This document shows, piece by piece, positions 55,545 to 63,349 of a DNA stretch of 64,000 nt; the stretch's first letter is position 1, and each line of letters begins with the position of its first letter. The notes under the pieces were generated by a model, which had not been told where the DNA came from, ran no database searches, and worked only from the letters and a program-made list of their open reading frames with translations. The position numbers were made by a program, and so were the translations under genes. Where the stretch lies: contig NC_056548.1 of assembly GCF_910596095.1 (NCBI RefSeq), forward strand, positions 841,815 through 905,814. Reading direction: 5' to 3'. This stretch comes from Thunnus maccoyii (Eukaryota > Chordata > Actinopteri > Scombriformes > Scombridae).

Positions 55545-58500
55545 TCAGTGTCGGGAGCGCTTGGCAGGCGGGGCGGCGCCGCGCTCTGACAGGCCGAGTC
55601 TGCCGAGCTCCGAGTGGAAGAACTGCTGCAGACGGTGACCGGCCTTCGCCTCGTTAGTGTGACGAGGATTATACTGAAGACAGTTAGAGAACATCAACTC
55701 CACGTCCGAGATGTACTCACCTGGAGACAGAGACAGACAGACAGACAGACGGGAGACAGACGGGAAGCATGGGGAGAGACAGACAGATGTGGGGAGAGAC
55801 AGACAGATGTGGGGAGAGACAGACAGATGTGGGGAAAGACAGACAGACGTGGGGAGAGACAGACAGATGTGGGGAGAGACAGACAGATGTGGGGAAAGAC
55901 AGACAGACGTGGAGAGAGACAGACAGATGTGGGGAGAGACAGACAGACAGAGAGACAGACAGGAGGATGTAAGTTAGTTGCAGCTCTGGAAGGAAAAACT
56001 GACAAAACTGCACTAAATTATTTTCTTAATAATCATGAAACAATCTATTGATCATCTGGAAACAGTGAAACATGTCATCACAATATCCGAGAACACAAGG
56101 TGACGTCATTTCAGGTTGTCTGGTTTTGTCTGAATATTTTTGGGTTTTAAACTGTCAGTTTACTACAGCGGAAGAAAAGCAGAAGATTAAAGATCCACAT
56201 TTAAGAACCTGAAGCCTGAAAAAAAAACCTCTAATAAAGAATCTGATCAGTGTGTTTCCTCACCTGCTGTCTGATATTCACAGTTGTTGACTTTCTCTCT
56301 GATGGTGCTGAGAGCGATCGGCTTCTTGATGATGTCATAGTAGTCAGGAACCTACAGACAGGTAGACAGACAGGTGAGTTACAGACGATGCAGCTCCACA
56401 AACAGGTGAATATTACCTGTGTGTGTTTATGTTTGAGTACCTGAGTCCTGGACACCAGCTTCATGAAGGGCCAGCTGTCTTCGTGTCTGACGAGCTCCAC
56501 CGTCAGCTGCTCGCAGGCCGACAGCTCGTGGACGCCGTGGTTCCTCCCTGAGGAGCGGCGGCTGGATGAGGAGGTCGAGGAGGAGGAAGAGGAGGCAGGA
56601 GGGAGGACGGGGAGGACGGGTTTGGAGGGTTTAGAAGGGGGGGTCACGTCTGGAGGAGGAGCAGAGGAGAGATGTTACTGATGTTTATTAGTGTTTATCA
56701 GTAGTAGTTTGTTTACCTGTCGGCTAGTGTTTACAGTCAGTAGTTTGTTTACCTGTCGGCGGATGTTTACAGTCAGTAGTTTGTTTGTTTACCTGTCGGC
56801 GGGTGTTTACGGCCAGTAGTTTGTTTGTTTACCTGTCGGCGGGTGTTTACAGTCAGTAGTTTGTTTGTTTACCTGTCGGCGGGTGTTTACGGTCAGTAGT
56901 TTGTTTGTTTACCTGTCGGCGGGTGTTTACGGTCAGTAGTTTGTTTGTTTACCTGTCGGCGGGTGTTTACGGTCAGTAGTTTGTTTGTTTACCTGTCGGC
57001 GGGTGTTTACAGTCAGTAGTTTGTTTGTTTACCTGTCGGCGGGTGTTTACGGTCAGTAGTTTGTTTGTTTACCTGTCGGCGGATGTTTACAGTCAGTAGT
57101 TTGTTTGTTTACGGTCAGTAGTTTGTTTTTTACCTGTCGGCGGGTGTTTACGGTCAGTAGTTTGTTTGTTTACCTGTCGGCGGATGTTTACAGTCAGTAG
57201 TTTGTTTGTTTACCTGTCGGCGGGTGTTTACGGCCAGTAGTTTGTTTGTTTACCTGTCGGCGGGTGTTTACAGTCAGTAGTTTGTTTGTTTACCTGTCGG
57301 CGGGTGTTTACGGTCAGTAGTTTGTTTGTTTACCTGTCGGCGGATGTTTACAGTCAGTAGTTTGTTTGTTTACCTGTCGGCGGGTGTTTACGGTCAGTAG
57401 TTTGTTTGTTTACCTGTCGGCGGATGTTTACAGTCAGTAGTTTGTTTGTTTACCTGTCGGCGGGTGTTTACAGTCAGTAGTTTGTTTGTTTGCGGTCAGT
57501 AGTTTGTTTGTTTACCTGTCGGCGGGTGTTTACGGCCAGTAGTTTGTTTGTTTACCTGTCGGCGGGTGTTTACGGCCAGTAGTTTGTTTGTTTACCTGTC
57601 GGCGGGTGTTTACGGTCAGTAGTTTGTTTGTTTACCTGTCGGCGGGTGTTTACGGTCAGTAGTTTGTTTGTTTACCTGTCGGCGGGTGTTTACGGTCAGT
57701 AGTTTGTTTGTTTACGGTCAGTAGTTTGTTTGTTTACCTGTCGGCGGGTGTTTACGGTCAGTAGTTTGTTTGTTTACGGTCAGTAGTTTGTTTGTTTACC
57801 TGTCGGCGGGTGTTTACGGTCAGTAGTTTGTTTGTTTACGGTCAGTAGTTTGTTTGTTTACCTGTCGGCGGATGTTTACAGTCAGTAGTTTGTTTGTTTA
57901 CCTGTCGGCGGGTGTTTACGGTCAGTAGTTTGTTTGTTTACCTGTCGGCGGATGTTTACAGTCAGTAGTTTGTTTGTATACCTGTCGGCGGGTGTTTACA
58001 GTCAGTAGTTTGTTTGTTTACAGTCAGTAGTTTGTTTGTTTACGGTCAGTAGTTTGTTTGTTTACCTGTCGGCGGGTGTTTACGGTCAGTAGTTTGTTTA
58101 CCTGTCGGCGGGTGTTTACGGTCAGTAGTTTGTTTGTTTACCTGTCGGCGGGTGTTTACGGTCAGTAGTTTGTTTACCTGTCGGCGGGTGTTTACGGTCA
58201 GTAGTTTGTTTACCTGTCGGCGGGTGTTTACGGTCAGTAGTTTGTTTGTTTACCTGTCGGCGGCCTCTTGCGGGTCTCGCTCTGACCAGGTGAGGTTCTG
58301 GTGTTGCCGTTCGGTGGCAGGATCTCGTGGCTCAGGCGGGCGCTGATCCGACTCCCGGCGCGTGGTGGAGCTTTACTGCCGGACGCCGTGTTAGCCTTGG
58401 ATGTAGGAGGCGTGGCCTTTTTCCCTGAGGACCTGTGATTGGATGGAATCAGTGAACTGGGTGAACTGGGAACGATGCTTAAAAGACTATATGGACAGTT

Positions 58501-59952: not shown

Positions 59953-60031
<79 letters not shown>

Positions 60032-63000
60032 CGTACCTTGAGGCGGGGTCTCAGACAGTGGGTGTGATGTCCTCTGTCACAGCCGTCACACAGCAGCATG
60101 TTGTCGGCGTCTCCTTTGCGTCTGCAGATGCGACAGCGAGCGTTGAGGACGGAGCGAGACCAGAGGACGCTGCGCTCCAGACTGGACAGGTGGACAAACA
60201 CCTGAACACAAGTGATACACACACACAAGTTAATCACACAATACACACAATACACACACACATACACACACACACACCTGCTGTGACAGGTAAACATCTC
60301 GGACTGTTGCTCTGCAGGGATGTGTATCGATTAGAGCTCAAACAGTTGGTCAATTAATCAATTAGTTGATGAAAGGAATATTAATGGAGAACTAATATGA
60401 TAATCAATTAATCGTTTCAGTTTTTTTTTTTAAGCAAAAATGCAAAAAGATTTGTTGGTTCCAGGTTTTTAATGAGAATTGTTATTATGACTCTAATTCT
60501 GTGTTCAAACCAAACCAAAGTGAATTTTCTCCTTGTGTTACTCAAACAACTTTGACCGCAGGATGGAGATAAATGTTCATATTTTAATAAGAGTATACGT
60601 CTATGAGCCTGCTACAGCTCAGCGATGCCAAAAACCTTCCAGGTGGAATTAATGTTCTACACGTCAGAGGAAGCGGATGGAAGCAGATCAGAAAACAAGG
60701 AGGCTTGTGCAGAACACATCGTGATGATCATCACCAGGACGCTGCTGAGCAGGTAAACACATTCAATGATCAATGATGAGCTGGAAATAATAACCTGAGA
60801 CAGACTGGAGCAGGACTGCAGAGACTCCCTCCATCGCTCCAACACCGTCTTTATGACTCGACCGCTGTCACTGCCGTCTGAGACACAAACAGAGACACAA
60901 ACAGAGACACAAGCAGAGACACAAATAGAGACACAAACAGAGACACAAGCAGAGACACAAGCAGAGACACAAACAGAGACACAAGCAGAGACACAAACAG
61001 AGACACAAGCAGAGACACAAACAGAGACACAAACAGAGACACAAGCAGAGACACACACAGAGACACAAGCAGAGACACAAGCAGAGACACAAGCAGAGAC
61101 ACAAACAGAGACACAAGCAGAGACACAAACAGAGACACAAGCAGAGACACAAGCAGAGACACAAGCAGAGACACAAACAGAGACACAAGCAGAGACACAA
61201 GCAGAGACACAAGCAGAGACACAAGCAGAGACACAAGCAGAGACACAAACAGAGACACAAGCAGAGACACAAACAGAGACACAAACAGAGACACAAGCAG
61301 AGACACAAACAGAGACACAAGCAGAGACACAAACAGAGACACAAACAGAGACACAAGCAGAGACACACACAGAGACACAAGCAGAGACACAAGCAGAGAC
61401 ACAAGCAGAGACACAAACAGAGACACAAGCAGAGACACAAACAGAGACACAAGCAGAGACACACACAGAGACACAAGCAGAGACACAAGCAGAGACACAA
61501 GCAGAGACACACACAGAGACACAAGCAGAGACACAAACAGAGACACAAGCAGAGACACAAACAGAGACACACACAGAGACACAAACAGAGACACAAACAG
61601 AGACACACACAGAGACACAAACAGAGACACAAACAGAGACACAAACAGAGACACACACAGAGACACAAACAGAGACACAAACAGAGACACAAACAGAGAC
61701 ACAAGCAGAGACACAAACAGAGACACAAACAGAGACACAAGCAGAGACACAAGCAGAGACACAAACAGAGACACAAACAGAGACACACACAGAGACACAA
61801 ACAGAGACACAAACAGAGACACACACAGAGACACAAACAGAGACACAAACAGAGACACAAGCAGAGACACAAGCAGAGACACAAGCAGAGACACAAACAG
61901 AGACACACGCAGAGACACAAGCAGAGACACAAACAGAGACACAAGCAGAGACACAAACAGAGACACAAGCAGAGACACAAACAGAGACACAAACAGAGAC
62001 ACAAGCAGAGACACAAACAGAGACACAAGCAGAGACACAAACAGAGACACACGCAGAGACACAAGCAGAGACACAAACAGAGACACAAGCAGAGACACAA
62101 GCAGAGACACAAACAGAGACACAAGCAGAGACACAAACAGAGACACAAGCAGAGACACAAACAGAGACACACACAGAGACACAAGCAGAGACACAAACAG
62201 AGACACAAACAGAGACACAAACAGAGACACAAACAGAGACACAAGCAGAGACACACACAGAGACACAAACAGAGACACAAACAGAGACACAAGCAGAGAC
62301 ACAAACAGAGACACAAACAGAGACACAAGCAGAGACACAAACAGAGACACAAACAGAGACACAAGCAGAGACACACACAGAGACACACACAGAGACACAC
62401 ACAGAGACACACGCAGAGACACAAGCAGAGACACACACAGAGACACAAGCAGAGACACAAACAGAGACACAAACAGAGACACAAACAGAGACACAAACAG
62501 AGACACAAGCAGAGACACAAACAGAGACACAAGCAGAGACACAAGCAGAGACACACACAGAGACACAAGCAGAGACACAAACAGAGACACAAACAGAGAC
62601 ACAAGCAGAGACACACACAGAGACACACACAGAGACACACACAGAGACACAAGCAGAGACACACACAGAGACACAAACAGAGACACAAACAGAGACACAA
62701 GCAGAGACACACACAGAGACACAAACAGAGACACAAACAGAGACACAAACAGAGACACAAGCAGAGACACACACAGAGACACACACAGAGACACACACAG
62801 AGACACAAACAGAGACACACACAGAGACACACACAGAGACACGCAGTGATCAGAATATGACGAGACAGAAACTCTCAAAGTGCTGAATGTTGAACTCTAC
62901 ACAGTCGTACCATCACTGGCCTGGTCCTCATCTTTCTTCTTGTTCTTCTTCATCTTTTGGTCTTTCTTTGAGTCTTCCTCACCTGCAGGAGGAGGAAACA

Positions 63001-63349
63001 GATGTTATTGATAAAATAATACACAGTCACACTGCACATATAAAACCTCCAGACATGTTTCCATCGTCTCAGCGATCAGTGCTTTTATTTTCTGTTTTCA
63101 GTCAGTTCAGATTCTCCCTCCTAGACTTTTCCAGGCTGTTTCCAGACTTTTCCAGGCTGTTTCCAGACTTTTCCAGGCCCCGGAGTGTGAGACTCACCCA
63201 GCGGAGCTTTGAGGAAGCGCCTCTCGATGCCTTGCTCGATGTGAACCAGAGCCTGAGCCAGGATTCGTACCGAGCTGCTGACGGCCTGCGGAGTCCCGCT
63301 GCCGCTGCTGCAGGCGGCCGCGACGCCGTCAGACTTCAGCTCCTGCAGC
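55545..63349 (-). CDS. baz1a: BAZ1A (ACF1), C-terminal 499 residues; gene continues past the right edge
   Basis: Large subunit of the ACF/CHRAC ISWI remodelling complexes, which space nucleosomes. Ten exons in transcript order: 63198-63349, 62911-62982, 60795-60877, 60037-60201, 58760-58974, 58518-58679, 58254-58432, 56441-56649, 56264-56351, 55545-55720. They give 1501 nt, consistent in frame throughout. The first exon holds [18 protein letters not shown]. The PHD finger ([20 protein letters not shown], then [11 protein letters not shown]) is split over two exons. A 40-residue Glu-rich tract follows, then a basic linker with a GQQATPK repeat, then the bromodomain ([36 protein letters not shown]). 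The acetyl-lysine-reading Asn of the YN motif is kept. The end is AKRSRH. The WAC, DDT and WAKZ regions lie outside the window. Confidence 0.96.
55731..55965. repeat. 20-bp minisatellite beside the last baz1a exon
   Basis: About nine units of AGACAGATGTGGGGAGAGAC, beginning with GACA repeats that form the pyrimidine tract of the exon 55545-55720 acceptor on the transcribed strand. Confidence 0.9.
56704..58260. repeat. 40-bp minisatellite carrying copies of a baz1a 5' splice site
   Basis: About 36 occurrences of ACCTGTCGGC (plus strand) at a basic spacing of 40 bp, with some shortened or lengthened units. Read on the transcribed strand, each unit contains GCCGACAG-GTAAAC, the same as the real end of exon 58254-58432 with its donor. 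The array fills nearly the whole intron to the next exon at 56649. Confidence 0.95.
58555..58650 (-). repeat. In-frame 21-bp coding repeat in baz1a
   Basis: Within exon 58518-58679 the protein repeats (G/S)QQ(A/V)TPK four times, encoded by near-identical 21-bp units. It lies in the linker between the acidic tract and the bromodomain. Confidence 0.9.
59955..60027. repeat. (GT)36 microsatellite beside the baz1a PHD exon donor
   Basis: In the transcript it is (CA)36 starting about 10 nt after the donor of exon 60037-60201. An interrupted AC-rich stretch (60208-60279) lies on the other side of the exon. Confidence 0.95.
60880..62845. repeat. 12-bp minisatellite, about 163 copies, filling a baz1a intron
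   Basis: Units are GAGACACAAACA, GAGACACAAGCA and GAGACACACACA, with rare GAGACACACGCA and a single GAGACACAAATA. The array covers about 1.97 kb of the 2033-bp intron between exons 62911-62982 and 60795-60877. Because 12 is a multiple of 3, all frames stay open, giving giant Glu-Thr-Gln or Cys-Val-Ser frames with no coding meaning. The plus strand has no T except in the one AAATA unit. Confidence 0.97.
63125..63178. repeat. GACTTTTCCAGGCTGTTTCCA tandem, 2.5 copies
   Basis: A short repeat 20 bp beyond the donor of exon 63198-63349 in baz1a. Confidence 0.8.

Follow-up and report, generated by a model that had tools for sequence, protein, structure and literature searches.

In a baz1a-like gene of Thunnus maccoyii, the intron behind one exon carries 36 tandem copies of the 5' splice site with which it begins, and the repeat spans the exon-intron boundary itself, the 40-nt unit being composed of ten exonic and 30 intronic bases. 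We consider it probable, at roughly two chances in three (0.66), that this array arose at the junction as a minisatellite which is young, or else was homogenised recently, and that its first donor is chosen by position, the distal copies being mostly silent. The window, that is, the whole stretch of DNA that was analysed, measures 64,000 nt, and the gene lies on its minus strand.

Anatomy of the donor array

58254..58432, minus strand: exon g, 179 nt, whose last ten bases, CCGCCGACAG, belong to the repeat as its exonic portion (joined frame, unit comparison)
58252..58253, minus strand: GT of the first donor (CAG/GTAAAC), required by the reading frame (unit cutting, joined frame)
56716..58263, minus strand: array, comprising the ten exonic bases and 35 units mostly of 40 nt, to the last of 36 CAG/GT at 56716
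56650..56716, minus strand: 67 nt left as intron by the last donor, of minimal-intron size, with a pyrimidine tract and a CAG acceptor
56441..56649, minus strand: exon h, in which the bromodomain part begins (joined frame, Pfam, structure match)
56264..56351, minus strand: exon i, bromodomain (joined frame, Pfam, structure match)
55545..55720, minus strand: exon j, end of the bromodomain and stop codon (joined frame, Pfam, structure match)

When the intron after exon g was cut at every CAG/GT, 36 sites were obtained between 58253 and 56716 on the minus strand, the first being the real donor. The site reads CAGGTAAAC in 34 of the 36, CAGGTATAC in one and CAGGTAAAA in one, and the ten terminal bases of exon g precede 35 of them. 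These counts bear out the initial annotation, which had described about 36 equal copies of the exon end plus donor at a 40-bp step, had taken the array for an expansion of the exon-intron junction, and had named a lack of GT at the same position in the units as grounds for refutation; CAG/GT is present in 36 of 36.

The 35 donor-to-donor intervals measure 40 nt (25 cases), 36 nt (four), 62 nt (four), 61 nt (one) and 84 nt (one), and TRF gives two adjoining calls (56698-57112 and 57106-58263) with a period of 40. The 40-mer is built of two modules, of 22 and 18 nt, with GTAAAC at the start of each, and extra 22-nt modules are present in the longer units. Altogether the intron contains 75 GTAAAC, preceded by CAG in 34 cases and by the weak contexts ACC, ACT or GCC in 41. 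Measured from the first donor, the intron between exons g and h is 1,604 nt long, and measured from the last it is 67 nt; the last three donors lie 67, 103 and 143 nt from the acceptor.

Mean identity among the 25 units of 40 nt is 97%, with variation confined to four columns. Variant units are ordered ABBABCDAEFFF..., and a four-unit block, AIGE, is repeated ten units away, which is the pattern that block duplication would give; the order of the variants, in this one assembly, suggests turnover of the array. There is no N inside it. A genome search with the array sequence, using a tool that skips common words, returned 10 matches, all at C16:898505-900046.

The gene and the reading-frame consequence

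The modelled exons represent the 3' part of the gene, and its N-terminal domains fall outside them. Ten exons inferred from splice signals form one open joined frame that ends in a stop codon. The product of 499 residues contains a PHD finger (Pfam, 2.9e-12) and then, at its C-terminus, a bromodomain (3.3e-21), the arrangement of BAZ1A/ACF1; its closest solved structure is human BAZ1A (5uiy, E 4.9e-52), with the bromodomain part matched over its whole length. Three of the nine inferred introns are short (80, 85 and 89 nt), and the nine inferred acceptors have 12-19 pyrimidines out of 20.

Since exon g ends at about residue 342 and the bromodomain occupies residues 388-469, the array lies upstream of the entire bromodomain. 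Translation that continues past the first donor yields GKQTNY before a stop 17 nt beyond the exon end, and because unit one is 40 nt long and contains the in-frame TGA, every distal donor would lead to this same early stop; the first donor alone keeps the frame through to the bromodomain. Both the exon end at 58254-58432 with its continuation at 56441-56649, and the loss of the bromodomain behind GKQTNY upon distal use, had been claimed earlier, and they are upheld by the open joined frame and the read-through translation. An early-stop mRNA with two exon junctions still downstream would, by the usual rule, be expected to undergo decay.

Donor strength and probable choice of the first copy

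Computed pairing with U1 is -8.3 kcal/mol for the CAG form and -1.6 to -1.9 for the ACC and ACT forms, and with such a difference the 36 CAG/GT are to be regarded as serious donors. Their strength is ordinary for the gene, the nine inferred donors of which span -3.4 to -12.6. Copy one has the same 9-mer, and hence the same U1 pairing, as 33 other copies. Two pieces of the array are a little less stably folded than shuffled versions of themselves (z +1.54 and +1.58), two exon-end pieces are neutral (z -0.23 and -0.59), and the predicted accessibility of copy one ranks 6 of 36. Masking of the distal donors by RNA structure was rejected on these grounds, as the array folds no more than shuffles and copy one is not special. 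Neither sequence nor local structure therefore singles out copy one. The difference lies in position: copy one comes first in transcription and closes the 179-nt exon.

From the sequence we infer a series of steps covering the donor used, the part played by exon definition, decay and the origin of the array. A tandem duplication across the junction, taking in the last ten exonic and some 30 intronic bases, may have started the minisatellite, and slippage or unequal exchange would then have expanded it inside a former intron that was probably minimal, with the original exon end kept as copy one. The spliceosome would take copy one by position, as the first transcribed and through exon definition with the upstream acceptor, and would mostly bypass the other 35 near-equal donors; occasional distal use would give the early-stop mRNA, which is expected to decay. 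Against a choice by position it must be said that the last donors lie 67 and 103 nt from the acceptor, so that intron definition would favour distal donors. As the 67-nt intron of the last donor is close in size to the short introns of this gene, exon and intron definition would be opposed in one and the same transcript.

Arrays elsewhere in the gene and the genome

The same gene contains other arrays. At 60880-62842 there is a 2-kb array of 12-nt units, GTTTGTGTCTCT, which reaches to within two bases of the exon c acceptor (GTGTCTCAG/ACGG) and is an acceptor-side counterpart of the donor array. Four more intronic arrays (59955-60031, 60217-60277, 55739-55948 and 63123-63178) lie 5-19 nt from a splice junction. 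Taken together, the six intronic arrays lie closer to junctions than expected if they were placed at random within the intron (Fisher combined p 0.0011, single p 0.012-0.25), a hint that comes from one gene and includes the array that prompted the analysis.

A pattern search of the genome for three donor motifs in a row, 8-38 nt apart, with the reversed pattern as control, counted overlapping triplets and not arrays. CAGGTRAG triplets gave 4,240 matches versus 85 reversed; CAGGTAAAC, 679 versus 2 (604 versus 2 with gaps of 28-58 nt); CAGGTGAGT, 776 versus 44; and CAGGTAAG followed by A, C or G, 54 versus 0. Triplets of the rearranged motif CAGTGRAG numbered 311, with 130 for its own reversed control. 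Across the whole genome, AAGGTAAGT triplets were not enriched (28 versus 57) and look telomere-derived, and the perfect U1 donor CAGGTAAGT occurred as a tandem triplet 0 times versus 3 reversed. Most donor-like triplets tested are thus far above their controls and two are not; a general enrichment of donors in arrays was rejected, the effect not being uniform.

Apart from one at C5:8.91 Mb, all donor-motif arrays retrieved, that of the window (C16:0.84-0.91 Mb) included, are no more than about 4 Mb from the end of a contig. Minisatellites are often found near contig ends.

Among the matches listed, CAGGTAAAC forms at least 15 distinct arrays besides that of the window, and 3 of these 15 have their first donor exactly where an exon identified by homology ends:

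mGluR6-like: exons joined at the first donor give a match to mGluR6 that runs through the junction (9llz, E 1.5e-70)
laminin beta-1-like: first donor at the exon end (4aqs, E 5.3e-20)
FNBP1-like (L079): first donor at the exon end (2efl, E 9.5e-07; no Pfam match)

A lone CAGGTAAAC is perhaps a true donor about one time in ten, by a rough estimate, and 3 of 15 among the matches listed therefore shows recurrence and not a preference for splice sites. With 54 CAGGTAAAC in 36-nt units, the array at C5:377503-379563 (L069) exceeds the baz1a-like one in donor number; it follows a candidate short exon, and the open stretch before it matched no Pfam family. At L083 a BTB exon has its inferred donor 80 nt ahead of the first array donor, and at L078 the sequence fetched begins inside the array. 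On the opposite strand, one array ends 11 nt from the inferred acceptor before a VMAT-like exon (8tgg, E 1.9e-15) and another 5 nt from that before a DAB2IP-like exon (Pfam 2.9e-10); a possible third such case, L085, found no support, and its acceptor was not found. The remaining six of the 15 (C2:153895, C2:688613, C4:34287646, C8:34944694, C9:471285 and C9:34784653) showed no supported exon.

Of the ten CAGGTRAG arrays among the matches listed, seven were examined, C2:422339, C2:436608 and C2:996774 being left out. Over all motifs, arrays found to have no supported start exon were those at L009, L016, L025, L029, L071, L073, L074, L076, L077, L081 and L084. L077 was rejected as an exon-end case, its Pfam match PH_NISCH_C (E 0.0047) being below cut-off and its RasGEF_N exon (4.5e-10) coming after the array. 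L081 has a second short array, four CAGGTGAGT at 20-nt steps, 130-190 nt upstream of its first CAGGTAAAC and after an open stretch; the candidate exon before this CAGGTGAGT array had no Pfam support.

For CAGGTAAG followed by A, C or G the listing is complete at eight arrays, all of which (8/8) were examined:

RNF31-like: first donor at the exon end (4ljp, E 6.3e-09; no Pfam match)
MAM-domain exon (L090), a weaker case: Pfam 4.3e-05, below the curated cut-off; enteropeptidase, E 8.9e-04
third, candidate case: first donor at a putative exon end in what we take to be the serum response factor (srf) gene; no Pfam match for the exon
two opposite-strand arrays: ends 20 and 26 nt from the inferred acceptors of an ion-channel exon (Pfam Ion_trans 1.9e-29) and a permease-like exon (Pfam 1.8e-05, below its cut-off)
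L086, L089 and L091: arrays without exon assignment

The number of exonic bases shared exactly with the unit is 10 for baz1a, 11 for mGluR6, 6 for laminin, 14 for srf, 18 for FNBP1, 23 for RNF31 and 13 for MAM. In the mGluR6, FNBP1 and RNF31 cases the shared coding bases align with the related protein as far as the exon boundary, so that the array must have grown from the exon and not the reverse. In the baz1a-, mGluR6-, srf- and laminin-like genes, use of a distal donor would run into a stop. The FNBP1-like unit of 42 nt and the MAM-like unit of 30 nt are open, so that 14 or 10 residues would be gained in frame with every distal step, and the 28-nt RNF31-like unit shifts the frame, yet meets no stop within the piece examined. 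Donors identical over the U1-binding site range from 3 (FNBP1-like) to 34 (baz1a-like).

We propose tentatively, at somewhat less than even odds, that junction-born minisatellites form a recurrent class in this genome, with arrays starting right at authentic donors in at least five genes including baz1a, several over-represented motifs and an absence of the perfect U1 site. A counter-point to an origin at junctions is that for many of the genome's donor-motif arrays a start exon finds no support.

Alternative explanations

The uniform outcome of distal use, with the same early stop from every distal donor, would also suit an array that tunes baz1a output, the share of distal donors being regulated (for example, by the level of U1 or of SR proteins) and the early-stop mRNA lowering expression. 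The accessible part of a study of tandem GYNNGY donors allows that most of the regulated ones may tune expression via decay, but it concludes that tandem-donor choice is primarily noise (PMC4267661). Moreover, an early stop is the outcome of most unit lengths that are not multiples of three, and the units of the FNBP1-like and MAM-like arrays have lengths divisible by three and contain no stop, so that consequences differ between genes; we regard such regulation, which the initial annotation had suggested as an alternative, as unlikely. It is more unlikely still that intron definition prevails, with the last donors (67, 103 and 143 nt from the acceptor) often used and much baz1a mRNA truncated in the animal or the tissue concerned. 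Three of the nine inferred introns of the gene have 80-89 nt and the terminal 67 nt carry minimal-intron signals, but exon g would grow to about 1.7 kb, and the bromodomain frame is uninterrupted, with a match to BAZ1A along its full length, which suggests that it is still translated.

Copy number might instead be an artefact of assembly, the true array being shorter, longer or variable between individuals. Minisatellites are generally assembled poorly, and the laminin-like sister array runs into an N stretch, which may be a gap; however, the baz1a-like array is free of N, and its ordered variant units and repeated AIGE block look like real evolution, which leaves this explanation with a very small chance. 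We give hardly any credence to either of two functional readings of the units. If these were zero-length exons for stepwise removal of the intron, each would offer a branch-like TACTGAC and then AG/GT, and TACTGAC does stand 20 nt upstream of CAG in 31 of 35 units; but the stretch from TACTGAC to AG in the usual unit is 50% pyrimidine with runs of at most 3, and recursive (ratchet) splice sites were rejected because the branch-like motif is present in most units and the pyrimidine tract is absent. If the 36 CAG/GT, most of them with a seven-pair core for U1, served as a platform of U1 sites guarding a long intron from premature polyadenylation or retaining the RNA in the nucleus, there would be little to protect, since without the array the intron would measure only about 67 nt. 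Silent distal copies behind a first donor chosen by position thus remain the preferred reading.

Implications

Constructs built with two sites are the usual means of studying choice among equal 5' splice sites, and with it the reading of exon versus intron. The baz1a-like intron would provide a natural assay of this choice, the first donor giving a 1,604-nt intron and the last a 67-nt one, and natural genes with 3 to 34 identical donors, in addition to the candidate case of 54, would yield a choice curve across several genes. Should the recurrent class be real, exon-end position would reliably prevail over dozens of equal donors, and selection would tolerate arrays of moderate donors while removing those of perfect ones; if arrays are indeed cleared of perfect donors, one could measure how much is tolerated. 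In-frame arrays such as the FNBP1-like and MAM-like ones would then be a route to new repeat peptides via distal donors.

Comparison with known systems

The nearest relatives of this array are the mirages of amphioxus, which the accessible text describes as minisatellite-like tandem duplications of the exon-intron boundary, often with AG/GT signals, that display length instability, and for which Adh3 data and globin RT-PCR suggest that regular splicing is undisturbed (PMC3087553). In the globin genes the units measure 150-160 bp, BflGb6 having 6 and 3 repeats and BflGb9 a single duplicate, and in Adh3 they measure 10-72 bp (PMC3087553, in part); mirages also occur in TnC and PGBD5, according to the accessible portion of PMC3902484. 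The likeness lies in a tandem repeat across an exon-intron boundary that carries splice signals. The baz1a case differs in concerning a vertebrate-type gene with a 40-nt unit and 36 donors, and in being described from DNA, whereas RT-PCR was done for the globins.

The human IFI6 (6-16) repeat has a 12-nt unit in roughly 26 copies, and like the baz1a array it is a minisatellite with donors downstream of the authentic one. That it supplies multiple donors is known from the title of Turri 1995 as cited in PMC4526556, the accessible part of which states that two of the downstream repeat units act as donors, giving three mRNAs. Distal donors are thus used in IFI6, whereas their use in baz1a would give an early stop; as far as this source goes, their use counts against silent distal copies in baz1a. 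Two further systems are more distant. Intron gain by tandem duplication of an AGGT segment (the Rogers model, as cited in the accessible part of PMC3087553) likewise creates new GT and AG pairs from junction-like copies, but the baz1a copies enlarge an existing intron and create no new one. Near-equal neighbouring donors also compete in GYNNGY tandem sites, partly with decay as the outcome (PMC4267661, in part), but there two sites are spaced by four nt, and baz1a has 36, mostly 40 nt apart.

A literature search on fish and other vertebrates, in which most subscription journals were outside coverage, recognised no report on a fish gene as a junction minisatellite; as far as their accessible text shows, minisatellites near alternative exons of C. 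elegans (PMC4039745) and an intron polymorphism in a fish myostatin gene (PMC3045353) are different things. The initial annotation's view that tandem donors on this scale would be unusual is not supported: amphioxus mirages and IFI6 are published examples of the class, the same genome has a 54-donor CAGGTAAAC array, and its mGluR6-, laminin-beta-, FNBP1- and RNF31-like genes carry arrays at exon ends. The baz1a-like array belongs to the known kind of the mirages and of IFI6, and it is a large, but not the largest, donor array of its own genome.
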